NCBI RefSeq assembly: GCF_963082495.1
Contig: NZ_CAUJAN010000006.1
Coordinates: 36,241-100,240, forward strand
From: Methanobrevibacter sp. V74
GTDB lineage: Archaea; Methanobacteriota; Methanobacteria; Methanobacteriales; Methanobacteriaceae
Reading direction: 5' to 3'
DNA: 64,000 bases
Shown here one piece after another: positions 9,324-19,642 of this stretch. The notes under the pieces were generated by a model. It searched no databases. It was not told the origin of the DNA and saw only the letters and a list, made by a program, of their open reading frames with translations. The stretch's first letter is position 1; each line of letters begins with the position of its first letter. The translations under genes and the position numbers were made by a program.

Positions 9324-9411
9324 GTTTACACCTCTCTTTATATATTCTATAAAATTAAAAGTTCTATTTATTTTCTTTCTTTATCCTTCATTCCTAGAAA
9401 CTTAAGATTTT

Positions 9412-9636
9412 TTATTTTTTTTATCATTGTTTATTCATTGAAAATTGCTAATTTTGATTTATTTTGCTTTAATCAGTTATTATTTATTTTAATACTTTAT
9501 TAATTAATTTTAATTTATTTATATCTAATTTTAATAATTATTAATAGTTTATTTTAAATATTATTAATTATATATATATTTATATAAGTAATTAAAGTTT
9601 TTTAATCATGAATTTATTTGATTGGGGGTTGGATTG
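9412..9636. other. IS4-type element left untranslated part
   Basis: About 225 bp of very AT-rich DNA between the left inverted repeat and the transposase start. It has no frame with coding character and holds the presumed promoter (ATTATATATATATTTATATAAG near 9570-9590). Confidence 0.4.
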
Positions 9637-11012
9637 ATGTATTCTTATGATAGATTTGTCAAAGATTTTTTCAGTTTATTTGATGTTTTTATATCTGAAA
9701 AATATGTAACTGAAGATAATAAGTTTATTAGAGATAGAAAAATGACTCAAAAAGAGTATACAACATTTATTCTTTCTCAAAGAAGCTGTACATCTTATAT
9801 TGAAACGATTAGATTTTTCACAATAGGATTGAATAAGAAGTTTAAAACAATTTCTAGCCAAGGAATTGGAAAACAAAGAATGTTCATTGACCCAAAAGTT
9901 TTTATTGATATGAATGAATCTTTTATTGACCAATTATATGGCAAATATTCTGGATTTTCAAAATTTAAAGGATATATTGTTAGTGCTTGTGATGGAAGTA
10001 TTATTGATCTTCCCAATGTTACTTTAACACGTGAAGAATTCCCTGTTGGTGATGAAAACCTGTTAAAAGAAAAAGAATTCGTGCAAGAGTTTCATGTCTT
10101 TTAGACGTTCATTCTAAACATATTTTAACAGCAAAAATTGTTGAAACAACAATAAATGAAGTAGATTTAGCAATTGAACATTTAGAGAACTTAAAACAAA
10201 GATTAAACATTACAAAATTAATTACCATTTACGATCGAGGATATTCATCAATCGAACTCATGGCAAAAACCATTGATTTAAACTCTAAATTTTTAATAAG
10301 ACTACCAAAAAATGTATTTAGACATTTAATCAAACAAATGAAGACTAATGATGAAATTATAAAAATAAATTTAACAAATAATAGATTAAGTCATTTTGAT
10401 GATGAAAATTTAAAAGAAAAAGCAAGAAAGATGGGGCGATTAGAAATTCGCATAGCATTAGTAGATATTGGTAAGAACGAACCTGAAATACTTGCAACAA
10501 ATTTAACATCTGAAGAATTCTCAACAGAAGATTTAAAAGAATTATATGGTAAAAGATGGGCAGTTGAAACTGGATTTGACAGATTAAAAAATTTAATCGA
10601 AATCGAAGATTTCAGCGGAATTCGAAGAACAATAATCGAACAAGATTTTCACGCCCACATATTCGTTTATAACCTAGCAATGACAATTAAAAATCATGCA
10701 GAAAACAATATAACAAGAATACCCAGAAATAAAGATGAAAAAATAATTTATCAGTCGAATTTCGCAAAAATAACGGGAAACATCTATTTATTCTTATTTG
10801 ACCTAATATTTGAAACGCAAACGAAAAGAGAGCAAATAATCGATTTTATAGTAAAAGAAGCATCTAAAGAACTAATACAATATAAAGAAAATCAATACAA
10901 TAATAAAGAACGAAAAACCCCGGATGTTTATAATAAACATCCAGGAAACAAGAAAAAACACACTAATCAAATAATTTCACCAAAAATTAGTGAGTTTTCA
11001 CATCTTGTTTAA
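9637..11012 (+). pseudogene. IS4-family transposase, frameshifted
   Basis: The N-terminal frame starts MYSYDRFVKDFFSLF and carries the first catalytic Asp in VSACDGSIIDLPN. The frame is lost in a run of five A at 10070-10074 and continues in another frame as RARVSCLLDVHSKHILTAKI. The second Asp is in IYDRGYSS, and the IS4 signature Y-(2)-R-(3)-E-(6)-K is intact in LYGKRWAVETGFDRLKNL. Restored length is about 458 residues. One added A repairs it, so decay and sequencing error are both possible. The 5' half uses T-ending codons and the 3' half A/C-ending ones. Confidence 0.85.
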
Positions 11013-11143
11013 TAGTTCTGTTCACAAATCATATAAAAAACTTACGAAAATCAAATCCTAATCCCAAAATAATATAACAACGTTATCAAATAAACAGAAT
11101 TAATAAAAAATTTCACATGAAAAATCTTAAGTTTCTAGGAATG

Positions 11144-11282
11144 CTTTTAATCTTCCATGAATTTCATAGTATTCAAGCCATTCTTTAATTTCTACCTCAT
11201 CAATAATGGAATTAATAATCTTATCCTGCAAGGAATGTGCATTATGTTTTGAATAATTCAACTGAAAACATTCAGTATTAAC
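11144..11282 (-). pseudogene. Fragment of an unknown gene between two mobile elements
   Basis: The minus strand has an uninterrupted frame across the whole segment, including SLQDKIINSIIDEVEIKEWL and ending in YYEIHGRLKA at the IS4-type right end. Composition is coding-like, but the piece is only about 46 residues and is cut on one side by the IS end. It includes one copy of the 37-bp direct repeat. No family recognised; it is probably the stump of a gene broken by the insertions. Confidence 0.3.
11246..11282. repeat. 37-bp direct repeat, copy 1
   Basis: Exactly identical over 37 bp to 14715-14751. It begins GTTTTGAATAATTCAA and ends CAGTATTAAC, and holds the short hairpin ACTGAA-AACA-TTCAGT. 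The truncated transposase reading frame starts immediately after it. Confidence 0.85.
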
Positions 11283-12350
11283 TTAATTGGAGAACATTAT
11301 GTTTAGAAGAAGGATTTCCAATTAGAGTAAAAATTAAACGATATTTTTGCCACGATTGCGGAAAAAAATCTCAAGCAGAGTTTACAGGATTCTATGATAA
11401 ATTCTGTAATTTATCCAATGATTTCAAAAATAAAATAATTAATGCCCGTGAAAACAGTTGGATATCTCTAAGAAATATTAAAAGACTCATTAAAGACTGG
11501 TTTGGAATTAAAGTGTCTCATGAAACCATAAGAAAAGCTTTATTGGTCGAAGGTGAATTTTATTATTTCAACGATGAGTTGAAATTGTCTGGATATTACG
11601 GATATGACGAACAGTGGGAGAGAGTTAACGGAAACTGGGTTTACTACCTTGTACTCTTTGATTTAGTCAATAACGTACCTGTGGCATCGATGCTAACTGA
11701 AATATTAAATGAGAATGTAATTGAAAATTTTATTTATATGAGTATTCCTTTTAAAGACCGTGTTGCAATTGTTACGGATTTAAAAACGGAATATGATAAA
11801 ATAATGAGCAAATTAGGATTTATTCACCAACATTGTACTTTTCACTTGGAAAAAAACATTAAAAGTAACATGGAAAAGAAAATAAACAAAAATATGACTA
11901 ATTATCGCTTTGAATTAAAAAATACTCATCCTAAATACTCTGATGACAATCTTGATGAAATTATAAAAAAGAAAAAAGAAGAAGTAAAAAAAGAAATATG
12001 GAAATATATTGCTGAATTTATGAAATTATTTAAACAACCAACCTTTGATGAAGCAATTGAGTATATAAAATTTTTAAAAGATGAAATAAAATATTATCCA
12101 GAACATTTGGCCAAGTATCTAAAAAAGAATTTTTTCCCAGAATACAGAAAATTCCTAAGATTCCTTGAAGATGATTATAAAAGACATTTAGAACCAACAA
12201 ATAATAAATTAGAAAATTTCAATGGCAATACAATGCCAAAATACGAAAAAAGAAGTTATAGGACTATGCAAGGATTATGGAGTGCATTAATGCATAAAAA
12301 CGATGGTTGGACAAAAAGAAGAAATGAAGACCTAACAAATTGACAGTCCC
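11283..12350 (+). mobile_element. 5'-truncated insertion sequence related to the 49.7-51.3 kb element
   Basis: Only the right end is present: ACAAATTGACAGTCCC at 12335-12350 matches the right terminal repeat of the element ending at 51348. The left end and about 86 N-terminal codons are missing, and the break point coincides with the 37-bp direct repeat. Confidence 0.75.
11285..12343 (+). pseudogene. DDE transposase, N-terminally truncated
   Basis: Open from 11285 without a start codon; the first residues NWRTLCLEEGFPIRVK align with residue 87 of the homologous transposase at 50022. A zinc knuckle half (CHDCGKK) is kept. Candidate catalytic residues are Asp in YYGYDEQW, Asp in IVTDLKTEYDKIM and Glu in TNNKLENFNG. 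The frame is otherwise intact to the stop. Resembles ISL3/MULE-like transposases, but the family is not certain. An internal ATG at 11513 could give a 276-residue product lacking the DNA-binding part. Confidence 0.75.
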
Positions 12351-12476
12351 AGGTTGATTCAGAACAGTTAATTATTTATAGATGATTGTATAGAATCATT
12401 ATTAATTATTTAAATATTATATTGATTCAATTTCATTTAATTATGAAAATATTAAGATCCGGAGGATTGATATAAA

Positions 12477-14663
12477 ATGATTAAGAATTTAAATAAAGTT
12501 ATAATAGTGTTTTTATTTTTAATATTTTTATCTATTTCAGTTGTTTCAGCACAAGACAATGCAACATCTGAAATAGATTTAAGTGAAAATACTACAATTT
12601 TAGAAGTTGAAGCTGATGATAAATTAAATGTTGAAATGAACAAAAGCGATTTAAAAGGATCTACTTCAACATTTACTGATTTGCAAAACATAATCAATGG
12701 TGCAAGTTCTGGTAGTACAATAACTCTAAATAAAGACTATACATATGTATTTGGAGATAATGCGATAATAATTAATAAACCTTTAACTATTGATGGTAAA
12801 AACCATGTACTTAACGGAAGATTAGCTACACGAATATTCTGGATAGGTGACAATCAAGTCACATTAAAAAATATAAGATTCATAAATGCTAATAATACTC
12901 AAACAGATTGGGGTGGTGCCATTGACTGGTTTGGAGATAATGTTAATTTAGAAAATTGTTACTTTGAAAATAACCACGCACGTAAACTTGGTGGTGCTAT
13001 TTACTTACATGGAACACAAGGCAATATAAAAAACTGCACTTTTAACAATAACCATGCAGATGTTGGTGGTGCTGTTTATTGGAATGGTAATAATGGTAAA
13101 TTAAGTGCTTGTTCTTTTAATAATAATCATGCAGATGGGTATGGTGGTGCTGTTTATTGGCATGGTGATAATGGTTTTTTAAGTGCTTGTTCTTTTGTTA
13201 ATAACCATGCTAAATGGTATGGTGGTGCTGTTTATTGGAATGGTAATAATGGTAAATTAAGTGCTTGTTCTTTTAATAATAACCATGCAAAGTATGAAGG
13301 TGCTGTTAAATGGACTGGTAATCATGGTAAATTAAAGAATTGTTCTTTTGTTAATAACCATGCAGATGATGATGGTGGTGCTGTTTGTTGGACTGGTGCT
13401 AATGGTTTTTTAAGTGCTTGTTCTTTTGTTAATAATCATGCAGATGCTGGTGGTGGTGCTGTTTGGTGGACTGGTGATAATGGTTTTTTAAGTGCTTGTT
13501 CTTTTGTTAATAACCATGCTAAATGGGGTGGTGCTGTTTTTTGGGATGGTGATAATGGTAAATTAAGTAGTTGTTCTTTTGTTAATAACCATGCTAAAAA
13601 ATTTAAAGGTAATGTTATTTATTGGTTTAAGTCAGGTGATATATTTGCTTGTACTTTTAGTGTATTTCGTCCTAAAAATACAAACACTGTTACTGTTAAT
13701 AACTTAATTTACTACGAAAAAAATAATTACAATGTTAATTACTATGAAAATGGTAATAAAATCCTTAATAGTGGGATAAATAAGAATATTACTTTTTTTA
13801 ATTTAAACAGTGGAAAACACACTATTAAAATGATTTATAAAAAAGACGGTAATGATTTGACTAATGATTTAATTATTACTGGTGATTCTTATTTAAATTC
13901 TAATAATGTGTATATGTTTTATAATGATGGGACAAAATATAAGGTAAAATTAACAGACTACCAAGGAAAACCTTTAATTTATAAAAATCTTCAAATCACA
14001 ATCAAAAATAAAAAATACAACCTAAAAACAGACAAATATGGCTATGCTACTATACTTCTCAAACAAAAACCTGGACAATACTCAATAATAGCTAAATTCA
14101 ATGGAGATAAAGATTATGGTCCAAGCACCTTCACAACCAAGATAAAAATCTTAAAATCCCCAATAACAAAAAATAAAAACTTAAAAATTTATTTCATGGG
14201 TGGAACATTTAAAGTACAAATAATACATGCAAATGGTAAAAATGTAGGCGCTGGAAAAACAGTAAAATTCACAATATCAGGAAAAACATACACCAAAAAA
14301 ACAGACAAAAATGGATACGCAAGCCTAAAAATCACACAAAAACCAAAAACACACACCATAACCACAAAATACACCAAATTCATCACAAAAAATAAAATCA
14401 CAATCCAACCACTACTAACAGCAAAAAACATCATAAAGAAAAAAACAAAAACAACAAAATTCCAGGCCAAACTAGTAAACACAAAAGGAAAACCACAAGC
14501 AAAAAAGAAAATAACATTTAAATTCAAAGGAAAAAAATACAAAAAACTAACAAACAAAAAAGGAATAGCCACACTAAAAATCAAAAACCTAAAAAAAGGC
14601 AAATACAACATCTACACACAATACACCAAATCAAAAATAAAAAACACAATAACAATCAAATAA
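12477..14663 (+). CDS. Adhesin-like surface protein with GGAI/FxxN beta-helix repeats and Ig-like domains
   Basis: A 728-residue secreted protein. Residues 1-25 are a signal peptide (VIIVFLFLIFLSISVVSAQ). Residues about 145-395 hold ten imperfect 25-26 residue repeats of the form GGAVYWNGNNGKLSACSFNN, which form a right-handed beta-helix. The GGA(I/V) and FxNN motifs are those of polymorphic membrane protein repeats. The rest contains three Ig-like units (for example TDYQGKPLIYKNLQITIKNK), ending in a lysine-rich domain shared with the 63.8 kb protein. No C-terminal membrane anchor, so attachment to the pseudomurein wall is presumed non-covalent. Ribosome-binding site GGAGG at 12461. Codon use changes sharply to A/C-rich after about 13950. 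Confidence 0.88.
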   Translation: MIKNLNKVIIVFLFLIFLSISVVSAQDNATSEIDLSENTTILEVEADDKLNVEMNKSDLKGSTSTFTDLQNIINGASSGSTITLNKDYTYVFGDNAIIINKPLTIDGKNHVLNGRLATRIFWIGDNQVTLKNIRFINANNTQTDWGGAIDWFGDNVNLENCYFENNHARKLGGAIYLHGTQGNIKNCTFNNNHADVGGAVYWNGNNGKLSACSFNNNHADGYGGAVYWHGDNGFLSACSFVNNHAKWYGGAVYWNGNNGKLSACSFNNNHAKYEGAVKWTGNHGKLKNCSFVNNHADDDGGAVCWTGANGFLSACSFVNNHADAGGGAVWWTGDNGFLSACSFVNNHAKWGGAVFWDGDNGKLSSCSFVNNHAKKFKGNVIYWFKSGDIFACTFSVFRPKNTNTVTVNNLIYYEKNNYNVNYYENGNKILNSGINKNITFFNLNSGKHTIKMIYKKDGNDLTNDLIITGDSYLNSNNVYMFYNDGTKYKVKLTDYQGKPLIYKNLQITIKNKKYNLKTDKYGYATILLKQKPGQYSIIAKFNGDKDYGPSTFTTKIKILKSPITKNKNLKIYFMGGTFKVQIIHANGKNVGAGKTVKFTISGKTYTKKTDKNGYASLKITQKPKTHTITTKYTKFITKNKITIQPLLTAKNIIKKKTKTTKFQAKLVNTKGKPQAKKKITFKFKGKKYKKLTNKKGIATLKIKNLKKGKYNIYTQYTKSKIKNTITIK
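12912..13665 (+). repeat. Tandem 75-78 bp coding repeats (ten units)
   Basis: Internal tandem repetition of the adhesin-like gene. Units share near-identical stretches such as GGTGGTGCTGTTTATTGG and AGTGCTTGTTCTTTT. The middle units are the most similar, which suggests recent expansion by unequal exchange. Confidence 0.85.
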
Positions 14664-14672
14664 AAAAAAAAG

Positions 14673-14712
14673 AATAAGGAACCACCAATACTTCCTTATT
14701 TTAACCTTTTTT
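14673..14712 (+). terminator. Hairpin terminator after adhesin-like gene
   Basis: A perfect 9-bp stem AATAAGGAA/TTCCTTATT (14673-14681 and 14692-14700) followed by a T-rich tract ending in seven T. Confidence 0.65.
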
Positions 14713-14714
14713 TA

Positions 14715-14751
14715 GTTTTGAATAATTCAACTGAAAACATTCAGTATTAAC
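14715..14751. repeat. 37-bp direct repeat, copy 2
   Basis: Identical to 11246-11282. It abuts the first recognisable codons (QKEIVTYGG) of the degraded helicase gene. Read in that frame it gives LNNSTENIQY then a stop, so it may be the original 5' end of that gene. Confidence 0.85.
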
Positions 14752-16507
14752 AGAAAGAGATTGTTACTTATGGGGGAAATAAGTTTTTAAGCATAGAAGC
14801 GGGGTCGGGTGTAGGCAAAACCCGTGTTTTAATTGAAAAAGTTAATTATATGGTAAATGAGTTAGGGGGTGGATCCTAAATCATTGCTAATTGTCACTTT
14901 TTCAACTAAAGCTGCAGATGAACTTCGAGAGAGATTGTCTGAAGGTGATTTGTTAAAAAGTGATGTTCAAAAGATGCATATATCAACTATTCACTCTTTT
15001 TGCGAAAAGATACTTGAAGAAAATGGTCATGTTGGTTTAAATATCATTTCAGACGATGCCGGTGAGAAAAACTTGTTGTTCATTGGAAAGCATATGGAAG
15101 AGCTTGGATTTGTTAAAGAATGTTACATGTCAAGTAGCAACATCAAATATATTGCCAATAAATATAAATGAATATTGCTCTTTCAGTGTTGACACAGATA
15201 AGTTAATTGATTATATCACAGAAAATAGGCCAGTCAGCGAGGGATATGTCCACTTTTGTCCGTGAGCGAATGGAATTAAATGATGGAGAATATCCTCATG
15301 ATGAAGTTCGAAAAAATGATGAGTTTAAAGAGTCCAAGTATAATGCACAATATCTGCAAATCGCCAAATCCTATCCGATTTATGAAAAATATCTTAAAGC
15401 GCGAAAAAGCAATTGACTTTGCACATCTACAAAAGGATGCATTAGAAATTGTCAAAAAAGATGGATTTAAAACACAGTTCACCAACATACTAATTGATGA
15501 GTTTCAAGATACAGATCCTATGCAGATGGAATTGTTTGAGTATCTGATGAAACAAGCAAAATCATTTACAGTAGTAGGTGACATTAATCAAAGCATATAT
15601 GGATTTAGAGGTTCAAACATTAATCCATTTACATATTTAGCTAAATATCATAAAGATAAATTCGAGTTTAAAAGCCTGACCACTAATTATCGCTCCACTC
15701 ATGAAATCATCGATGTGTCTGAAGATTTCATTAAACATCAAAGACCAGTTGAATCCGCACTTGGAAAGGCTCAATGTGGTCGTGATGTAAAATAATCATG
15801 TTTATTATTCTTTAAATAACTATGATGCTAAAAATTAATCGACTAAAGAATCATCACTTGATAGTGAAGCTGAAAACATTGTAAATATCATTAAATATTT
15901 GATTGAAAATGAAAAAATCAATAGATTGTCCGATATTGGCATTCTATTTCGTTCTCTTTCAAAAAGTACCTCACGATGTATCGGACCATTGCTTGAAAAA
16001 TTAGAAGCGGAAAATATTAAATTTCAGGTCAATAACAATGATTTAATCAGTCAGGATGAAATTAAGTCAATTTTAACACTCTTTCACCATCTGGTTTCAG
16101 ATGATGATCCTCATAGTCACAGGTTTAATAGATGGGAAAAAGACTGGCTGAATTTAAAGGCATATGCCAATCAGGTCTTGTTCAATTTATCTGATGAGAC
16201 AAAAGAGATACTGATTAGCTTGCAGAATAAATTTGAAGAGGATGTTGTCAGGGCTGAAAATTATTTTTGGCTAAAAGACCATAATAGAGGAGGTAAAAAA
16301 TCCTTCAAAACAGTATTTGCCCGTGATGAGGAAATGCTCATTAAAATATTTAATAGTGTTACAAGGCCGGTTTTAACAAACGATAACCTAATTGAATATG
16401 GTATTGAAAATGAAGATGATTTGGAATTCTTTAGAAAATTAAATGAATTTAAAGACTCATTGTACTCTGAGGATGTTAAATTCTATGACAGGCCAACAGT
16501 TTCTGAG

Positions 16508-16601
16508 GTTTATTTAAAACTATTAACTGATGTTACGCTTGTGCCTTTTCTTAATTGCCTTCAAAAGCTCTCGTTTATTTAAAACTATTAACTGATGTTA
16601 C
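16508..16601 (+). repeat. CRISPR-like repeat-filler-repeat insertion 1
   Basis: A 29-bp sequence (starts GTTTATTTAAAACTATTA) occurs at 16508-16536 and again at 16573-16601. Between them lie 36 bp (16537-16572; about 42% GC) unrelated to the gene. Deleting 65 bp joins VYLKLLTDVT to GYLSEDL in one frame, so the insertion itself caused the frameshift here. Confidence 0.85.
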
Positions 16602-16725
16602 CGGTTATTTGTCTGAAGATTTAATCTTAAGTGATGAAGGAGATATTATAATTAACAACCTCTCAAAAATTACAGGTTCTCTTCAAACATTTGTTGACGT
16701 TAAGTTCAACCGGGACATTAGAGGT

Positions 16726-16822
16726 GCATTTTGGTTTGTATATAGAACCATTGAAGAATGGTCTGTTTTACAAACCCCTGCCGAATCTACCGCATTTTGG
16801 TTTGTATATAGAACCATTGAAG
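16726..16822 (+). repeat. CRISPR-like repeat-filler-repeat insertion 2
   Basis: A 31-bp sequence (starts GCATTTTGGTTTGTATATAG, ends CCATTGAAG) occurs at 16726-16756 and at 16792-16822. The 35 bp between (16757-16791) is unrelated and about 46% GC. The 66-bp insertion adds 22 residues in frame between AFWFVYRTIE and a second copy that runs on into GHSAYSD. Confidence 0.85.
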
Positions 16823-17931
16823 GACATTCGGCTTATTCTGATGAAAGTGATGCCATTCAAATAATGACTGTCCATCAGTCAAAAGGATTAGAATTCCCGG
16901 TTGTTATTATTCCCTCTCTGAAAAAAGACAATTTCCCAATGAAATATATCGATCCAAATCCAGATAATGGATGGATTTTTGGCCAGCCCGTTTATTACAC
17001 TCCTGATGACTGTTTAAATTATCCCAAATTTGATAAGGAATTCGGGCCTGAACTGTCTCATAATATGGAAGAGGAAAGAGTTATTTATGTTGCAATGACT
17101 CGTGCAGAGGATACATTAATATTGTCTTCATTAGTGGAGGATATGAACCAGTCAAATCAAATCGCAATTGAACAAAGTGAATTTGAAAGACTTCCAAAAG
17201 GTCCGGACTGCATAGAAAAATGCAATTAATGAAAACTTAAATAAATGCAAATTAATTGACCCTGAAGATATGGACATCAATGTGGTGTATTGCAGGAAGG
17301 ATGAAGAGGATGATGAATACTGTGTTGATTTAAGCTTCACTGCTTTGGAAAATTATAATAATTGTCCATTTAGATATAAAACTAGCTAACGGAGTTAATT
17401 TCACCATATCTGAAAAACAGGAGATTGATGATGGGATTTTTGCCCACTATACACTTGAAGTTATCAACAAAAAAATAATTAATAATGGCAATGTCTTTAT
17501 TGGTGAGGATGAGGTTGTTAAAACAATAGAGGAATTATTTGAAAATTCAAATGATGAGTTAAAAGAAGAGGATCCTGTTGGGTATGAAAAACAACTTAAC
17601 GAAATAATCGGCAACATTTATTCATTATTATAAAAATTACGGTAAAAATATAAAAATACTTGATAGTGAATATCCCTTCTATTTAAAAGACAGAAACTAT
17701 GCCCTTAATGGAGTCATTGATTTAATCTATGAAATTGATGGTAAATTGGGCATTATTGATTATAAGAATACTCGCTTAGAGGCCAAATACAAAGATAAAT
17801 TTAAAAAGCAACTTCATTTATATGTATTGGCATTAAGGGACCAAAATCATGAATATGAAGGTAAGGAAATTAGCGAACTTAAAGTTTACACTATTATAAT
17901 TACTAACCAAACTTTTATTATAGATGACTGA

Positions 17932-19257
17932 CAAATTATAAAATATGTCTGGAAAATCTAAAATTGATGTTTTTAATAAAATGACTAAAACCGCATTAGA
18001 TGAGGAAATCAGCAATTATGTGGCTTATCATAGGTATTATCAAAGATTGATTGCTGTTAAAATTGTTAGTGAAGGCAATACAATAACTGATGCTGCGAAT
18101 ATTCTAGGAAAATCATATCAAACAGTTCACAGATGGATTAAAACATGTGAATCTGAAGGATTGGAAGGTTTAAAACCTTCTTTTGGTGGTGGAAGGCCAT
18201 CAAAATTAACTTATGATCAACTAATTGAATTAGACAAAATCATTGAAAAAACACCAAATATGTCAATGAAAGATGTACATCTTCTTGTTAATGAAAAATT
18301 TAATGTAGATTACAGTTTAAAACAAATAGGAAAAATTGTAAAGAAATTAGGATACAATTACAGCAAAGCATATCCTAAATTTTCAAAATCCCCTGAAGAT
18401 GCTGAAGAACAGTTAAAAAAAACTTAGAAGAACATAACGTAACAACACGATATTATAGTCTTATTTGATGAAGCATCATTCCAAAATGAACCCTACACTC
18501 AAAAATCACTATATAAAAAAGGAACCAAACACACACAAACTGTAAATCCATACAAATTCAAAATCAACGCCATTGGATCACTAACAATAAATGGAAATTC
18601 GACCATCACAATCACAAATTCATCAACAGCACCAGAAATTGCAATAGCACTTCTAGAATTAAGAATAGCAAATACAAACAACAAAAATACAGTAAAAATA
18701 TTAAATAAAATAATATTCGATGTTAATCTAACTGATGAAGATATAGATAAAATATTAATGAAAAACAACAAAGATAATGAAGTTTTCGCAGCAAAAATTT
18801 TAAAAACATTAGAAAAATATAAGGACAATACCACCTCAACAATCGCTAGAATCATTGGAAAACACTGCAATAGAGAATTACTCAACAATGTGAAAAAAAG
18901 AAGAGAAATAAGACGAAAAATAACTTTAAATCTGTTACAAAAAGAAGACATTAATAACAAAAATGCAAACCGAATAAAGAATATGTTTAATTCTAGATAA
19001 TTATAGCGTCCACAAGTCTGCATTCATCAAAAAATAGCATTACATCTTATTGAATTAATATACCTCCCACCATACTCTCCTCACTTAAATCCAATTGAAC
19101 AAATATGGAGACAAATAAAAAGAAAAATAAAACATTATTATCTTGAATCAAAAGAATTTCTGCGAGATTTAACAATAGAAACGTATAATGAATCGATTTC
19201 TGAAACAAAAGTTCATGACAAATGGCTCGAAACATTTATACCAAAAATTTGGTAATT
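17932..19257 (+). mobile_element. IS630-type element, degraded (ends approximate)
   Basis: Defined by the transposase pseudogene that starts 13 bp after the helicase stop. I could not fix terminal inverted repeats; weak TTATAG-like matches flank the gene. Limits are therefore approximate. Confidence 0.55.
17945..19252 (+). pseudogene. IS630-family transposase, frameshifted
   Basis: The N-terminal helix-turn-helix region (TITDAANILGKSYQTVHRWI, then GLKPSFGGGRPSKLT) is in one frame and ends early at 18427 in a run of eight A (18415-18422). The catalytic domain follows in other frames: first Asp in VLFDEASFQNEP, second in LDNYSVHKSAF, and the hallmark PPYSPHLNPIEQIWRQIK. At least three shifts (18420, about 18453, about 19040). 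Between the first and second Asp is an extra helical stretch of about 100 residues that ordinary IS630 enzymes lack. Restored length is about 435 residues. The catalytic part is A/C-rich in codon use, unlike the N-terminal part. Confidence 0.85.
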
Positions 19258-19382
19258 AACTATAATGTGAAAAATCTAATCGATTTAATATGATCATGTT
19301 ACATCTTCTTTGAGAAAGAATATAATCCATATAATCTTTCTAAGTCATTTTTCTTTCCCTAATGAATCTATTGGCTTCGGCA

Positions 19383-19642
19383 ATATATTTTTTTGACACA
19401 AAACAATCAAATACTTTAAAAAGTTCCATGATGAATCTATAAAAAGTACATCACCTCACCTCAAATTAACTTAAAAACCTTAATCATAATATTAATATTT
19501 GTAGCTAATAAACTATGATTGATTATTAAAATTAACTATAAGTTAATTAAAACTATTTAATAAAGTATCAGAATAAGTAAATGTGGAATCAATTAAAATT
19601 AAGAACAAAAAAAGAAGAAAAAACATTAAGTTTCTAGAAATG
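19383..19642 (+). mobile_element. Relic of the 49.0-49.7 kb inverted-repeat element (right part)
   Basis: About 260 bp align by eye with 49421-49707 (AACAATCAAATA, GATGAATCTAT, TAATATT, TTAATTAAAACTATTTAATAAA and others in the same order), ending in TTAAGTTTCTAGAAATG, one mismatch from the shared terminal repeat. The left end is absent. The rest of the 500-bp gap (19253-19754) shows no gene. Confidence 0.7.

Follow-up and report, generated by a model that had tools for sequence, protein, structure and literature searches.

Two spacer-sized inserts in a helicase gene copy of Methanobrevibacter sp. V74 as probable off-target products of a Cas1-Cas2 integrase

Non-canonical spacer integration was reported for E. 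coli overexpressing Cas1-Cas2 (Nivala et al. 2018, as cited in PMC11788318 and PMC9456107). Off-target or non-specific integration was also described in vitro for Cas1-Cas2 of S. thermophilus (type II-A; PMC6895254), where the events were probably half-site, and for Cas1-Cas2 of S. solfataricus in the absence of host factors (type I-A; PMC5815122). According to PMC6895254, the S. thermophilus integrase favours G at off-target sites, and in types I-E, I-B, and II-A the position of the cut is measured by ruler motifs that lie within the repeat. The literature open to us contained no account of spacer scars in natural chromosomes of this group, nor of arrays whose units reach kilobase size, a weak negative since subscription papers are mostly outside its coverage. 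The two inserts described here resemble the E. coli case, as the citing papers present it, in that spacer-sized DNA is found at non-array sites of the genome, but they stand in a natural archaeal genome, their duplications differ from the repeat in length, and two events fall in one gene. With the in vitro work on S. thermophilus and S. solfataricus they would share integration outside the leader-repeat junction and, for S. thermophilus, the preference for G.

The window, a stretch of 64,000 nucleotides of Methanobrevibacter sp. V74, carries on its forward strand a frameshifted copy of a segment of a UvrD-like helicase/PD-(D/E)XK gene (14752..17900; source C7:1061-4076). Insert 1 in this copy consists of two exact copies of a 29-bp target (16508..16536 and 16573..16601, forward strand) around a 36-bp filler (16537..16572, forward strand) for which no source was found, the net gain being 65 bp. 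The earlier note had read this region (16508-16601) as an exact duplication around unrelated, GC-richer DNA, excision of which restores the reading frame. All three points were borne out: G+C counted by reading is 15/36 in the filler versus 6/29 in the target, and the frame without the 65 bp runs LLTDVT-GYLSEDL, in agreement with the copy on contig C7. Insert 2, of the same build, begins 124 bp beyond insert 1 and consists of two 31-bp target copies (16726..16756 and 16792..16822) and a 35-bp filler (16757..16791), all on the forward strand; both inserts fall within 315 bp of one gene. The bases that would have been attacked are G in three of four cases (by reading), a comparison with S. thermophilus that is post hoc and across types.

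The gene segment is present in two further copies in the genome. The C7 copy, which is the native-looking one, lacks both inserts, and the C5 copy carries insert 2 only. Between 14866 and 17840, insert 1 is the sole private difference of the window copy; those of the other two copies are substitutions and indels in C5 and a few substitutions in C7. Neither insert was present in any of 29 aligned homologue loci (one partial), these being the best-scoring loci besides the host's own; a match was given by 66 of the 138 family genomes, the host included. The alignment proposed in the earlier note as a check on the 65 bp therefore came out in its favour. Because the C7 and C5 sites are empty and the 29 homologue loci lack the 65 bp, insert 1 is taken as an insertion. 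Judged by the homologues, the empty state is ancestral; recombination between the short repeats may have removed inserts from the C5 or C7 copy.

Exact direct-repeat pairs of at least 20 bp, at most 150 bp apart and inside single stretches, were then collected from 699,423 bases of the host genome (30% of 2,299,297), with the array on contig C11 left out. Twenty pairs were obtained, of which three are the inserts (both of those in the window, and the C5 copy of insert 2). The setting of the remaining 17 is coding repeats that look adhesin-like by sequence, a repetitive ORF (L052) or a 54-bp tandem array (L140). Since a filter for unrelated flanks was passed by six of these 17 as well, the inserts are singled out by their setting and not by this filter alone. 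In the scan of 367,884 bases from relatives, the pairs passing the filter were mostly in CRISPR arrays or in one repetitive stretch (L187); further pairs were two with a repeat length of 21 bp, spaced by 102 and 117 bp (L198 and L200), and one 29/37 pair within an adhesin-like ORF (L203). The L140 array (L140:11960-12160, on C4) is made of four tandem 54-bp units in an intergenic region; it had been considered as a short CRISPR-like array and was rejected as a tandem repeat between genes.

The ordinary CRISPR module of the host is located on C11, where 48 exact copies of a 37-bp repeat are followed by cas1 and cas2. The 47 spacers measure 36 bp (31), 35 bp (14), 34 bp (1) and 27 bp (1), and the lengths of the two fillers are thus the two commonest spacer lengths, shared by 45 of the 47. 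Of the earlier note's expectations for the arrays of this organism, the spacer length of about 36 was right, and the repeat length of about 30 was wrong for this genome. The genome carries a second cas1-cas2 pair on C7. Neither cas1 nor an ordinary array was found in the window, in line with the earlier note, but two 37-bp repeats of a CRISPR-like locus are present there (11246-11282 and 14715-14751).

One more exact copy of the array repeat and two degenerate ones stand at the start of contig C7, and the native helicase gene starts less than 1 kb from them, behind a HIRAN-domain gene. An array was found beside the gene in 3 of 11 helicase loci examined in relatives. UvrD-like helicase genes with a PD-(D/E)XK end that adjoin CRISPR arrays, with a HIRAN-type gene nearby, were seen at L012:36-4240 (C7), L122, L123 and L125; the host's copy, L012:36-4240, is itself frameshifted. 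As to the C11 spacers, only one match elsewhere in the host genome was noted among the matches listed (E <= 0.01), namely that of spacer L009:1919-1954, which is identical to part of a terminase gene (C4:65027-65062, L121), apparently of a resident prophage. Several spacers of the array (L009:1-3443) contain GATGGTGTAGAGGTCACCATCGAA or parts of it in differing contexts, which looks as though a coding motif that recurs were their target. In the search for a PAM, the best E value of the array spacers against phages was 0.03, and against family genomes one usable protospacer locus was noted among the matches listed. Cas6 (PF10040) was not found in the genome by a model that matched just 2 of 14 control genomes.

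Filler 2 closely reproduces part of host nrdD (Pfam NRDD), differing from C4:306969-307003 at 2 positions. Five further species of the genus have sites that it matches with 3 mismatches, the identification of the matched gene as nrdD being established for the host. One of the two differences from host nrdD is at the first base of the filler; at the inner one, filler 2 agrees with the relatives and not with the host, so that it may derive from a sister strain, or host nrdD may have changed since then. Among viruses, filler 2 gave no exact 20-mer in IMG/VR and chance-level matches in phages. For filler 1, the search in viral, plasmid and metagenomic data recommended in the earlier note did not lead to a source. 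None was found in the host genome (up to 3 mismatches), in 138 family genomes, in IMG/VR (exact 21- and 20-mers) or in GTDB contigs (exact 24- and 22-mers), and blastn against phages and plasmids stayed at chance level. Within 1.50 Mb of other loci the sole full match was the same site (L050), the next best being 23/36, and within the host's own stretches the best was 23/36 versus 24/36 for a reversed control.

We consider both inserts to be probably off-target Cas1-Cas2 integrations, with the C11 pair as the most likely maker. The integrase would join a spacer-sized fragment into non-array DNA by attacking the two strands 29 or 31 bp apart, and gap filling would then duplicate the target. This reading, put forward for insert 1 in the earlier note, is favoured because the fillers have spacer lengths (36 and 35 bp) and the geometry is what an integrase acting at both ends would leave: target-spacer-target with exact duplication at a known empty site, now found twice, in a genome encoding two Cas1-Cas2 pairs. 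Of the two modules we favour the one on C11, whose spacers match the fillers exactly in length. From these features we infer both the agency of Cas1-Cas2 and the choice of pair, and the inserts, which work like off-target integrations, are putative members of that class. Part of the evidence points the other way. The duplications of 29 and 31 bp do not have the length of 37 bp that both repeats of this genome share, although a spacing other than 37 may be possible, since off-target DNA would lack the ruler motifs. The target region has no similarity to either leader. Target 1 against the repeat of the second, orphan Cas1-Cas2 locus on C7 gave a score reached by 24 of 500 shuffles, which, as the best of eight target-repeat comparisons, is not significant. 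No source was found for filler 1. Filler 2 stems from a housekeeping gene, whereas the one array spacer listed as matching host DNA outside the array does so in a terminase gene. Random off-target events, finally, would be unlikely to put two inserts so close together in one gene.

The near-identity of filler 2 to nrdD would suit a staggered break or template switching during replication, in which the polymerase or the end-joining machinery copies a distant stretch of 35-36 bp and resumes about 30 bp upstream with no integrase involved; the 2 bp shared at the right-hand junction of filler 2 are also in keeping with it. The four lengths, however, form two narrow pairs (29/31 and 36/35), the fillers match the spacer length, and under an illustrative null with filler length spread evenly between 10 and 100, both would be 35 or 36 with P=0.0005, so that we regard this explanation as rather unlikely, if a serious one. 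An origin of the inserts from the orphan Cas1-Cas2 of C7, by rare off-target placement of short units, is considered improbable. Units 1 and 2 of its array are pieces of host genes, as is filler 2, the window gene copy is joined to its repeat, and its repeat, like target 1, has G as the first base at either border (by reading), but 33 units in arrays of this kind span 204-7033 bp, none close to 36. An artefact of assembly or sequencing would fit the presence of insert 1 on one contig only; it is made very improbable by the occurrence of insert 2 on two contigs, and exact duplications with spacer-sized fillers are in our judgement not a usual assembly error.

The helicase copy begins at 14752, the first base past an exact 37-bp repeat of the orphan locus (14715..14751, reverse strand). 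A second exact copy of this repeat (11246..11282, reverse strand) bounds a 3432-bp unit (11283..14714) that contains an ORF and an adhesin-like gene (Chlam_PMP, Ig-like repeats). C5 has two copies of the same repeat, and on C7 it forms a row. A block some 10 kb long, which includes the repeats, the adhesin-like gene and the helicase copy and is bounded by insertion-sequence-like stretches, occurs twice in the genome (window 9389-19642 and C5:144650-155009). Its left end is a stretch with a DDE transposase (9389..11143), also present on C4 (99.8%). On the right, a putative insertion-sequence-like stretch encoding a transposase-type HTH protein (17901..19642, forward strand) terminates the helicase copy and, with it, the block that C5 also carries. 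In the likely order of events, the gene segment near the array trailer would have been captured beside a repeat of the giant-unit array, insert 2 would have entered, the block bounded by the insertion-sequence-like stretches would have been duplicated, and insert 1 would have entered the window copy alone.

The orphan locus (L010:15846-20000 and L011; C7:65.8-82.3 kb) contains cas2-cas1, with the row of repeats standing 200 bp behind this second cas1 of the genome; no ordinary array was found around it in the stretches examined there (exact 20-base seeds). Related loci (L184-L203), with cas1 62-85% identical, brought the set to 21 loci including the host's own, 20 of them from the best 21 genomes with one partial match left out. 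At the 19 loci with enough downstream sequence, all within the same genus, a 37-bp repeat of one common pattern closes a leader of 197-200 bp (19/19). The first repeat was located by motif score 180-225 bp from cas1, a step that is not blind and biases the repeat identity upward in the following figures: mean pairwise identity was 0.723 for the last 198 bp of cas1, 0.645 for the leader, 0.751 for the repeat and 0.204 for the next 198 bp (17 loci). In 14 of the 19, further copies of the repeat belonging to the respective locus lie on the same strand, with up to 3 mismatches. Of the five others, two are on contigs that end exactly at the repeat; the other three, with about 8 kb of sequence, speak against a uniform picture. 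In the host, repeat copies away from cas1 were found on C6, C5, C4 and elsewhere on C7.

With cas2-cas1, a leader and near-identical 37-bp repeats (at least two repeats at 14 of the 19 loci), this arrangement is like a CRISPR array, but the units between the repeats, 33 in number with a median of 895 bp, are 204-7033 bp long instead of the short and uniform 30-40 bp of spacers. No effector was found among 10 ORFs of the host locus, where PADLOC recognised cas1 and cas2 and, weakly, CARF3/Csa3 across a stretch of HTH type; in five upstream ORFs of L187, the second of the two loci covered among 21, it gave no cas gene and one match to the candidate family PDC-S01. Source tracing covered units 1-3 of units 1-6 of the host array. 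The 335 bp of unit 1 have a counterpart of equal length within an intact, presumably hisH-like glutamine-amidotransferase gene of C3, with 4 mismatches in 333 aligned bases, and unit 2 (440 bp) corresponds to 432 bp of C2, among them the end of a moaE gene. Unit 3 (2155 bases) contains a Mu F-like phage head gene; the first 1799 bases of the unit resemble a Methanobacteriales virus, with 70% identity over 30% of that query, and a part is 65% identical to C3:153955-154936. The units of one relative (G043) were found neither elsewhere in its genome (E <= 1e-6) nor in phages. Relatives of the orphan Cas1 were not confirmed in IMG/VR, and in phages three distant records were obtained with 25-31% identity.

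Integrons are likewise arrays of captured DNA, made up of whole gene cassettes and served by a tyrosine integrase. At the orphan loci the two traced units are gene fragments and the constant neighbour is Cas1; a tyrosine recombinase match was found near 11 of the 21 loci, 0.6-7.1 kb from cas1 and once on the other side, a count that includes some short stretches. This recombinase is a rival agent for the insertion of the long units, which we infer from linkage to be the work of the orphan Cas1-Cas2. On balance we think that the scar-bearing gene copy is a unit of an undescribed class of CRISPR-like arrays, in which a stand-alone Cas1-Cas2, present in many species of the genus, puts 0.2-7 kb of host or viral DNA between 37-bp repeats behind a conserved leader.

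Scars of the kind seen in the helicase copy would show that CRISPR integrases mutate natural genomes, and their signature, a filler of spacer length within a duplication of about 30 bp, could be counted elsewhere. If the giant-unit arrays are real, Cas1-Cas2 captures DNA of gene size, which bears on the relation of CRISPR adaptation to transposition and to integrons. These arrays would then represent a DNA-capture or long-memory system that uses a CRISPR integrase without CRISPR effectors.
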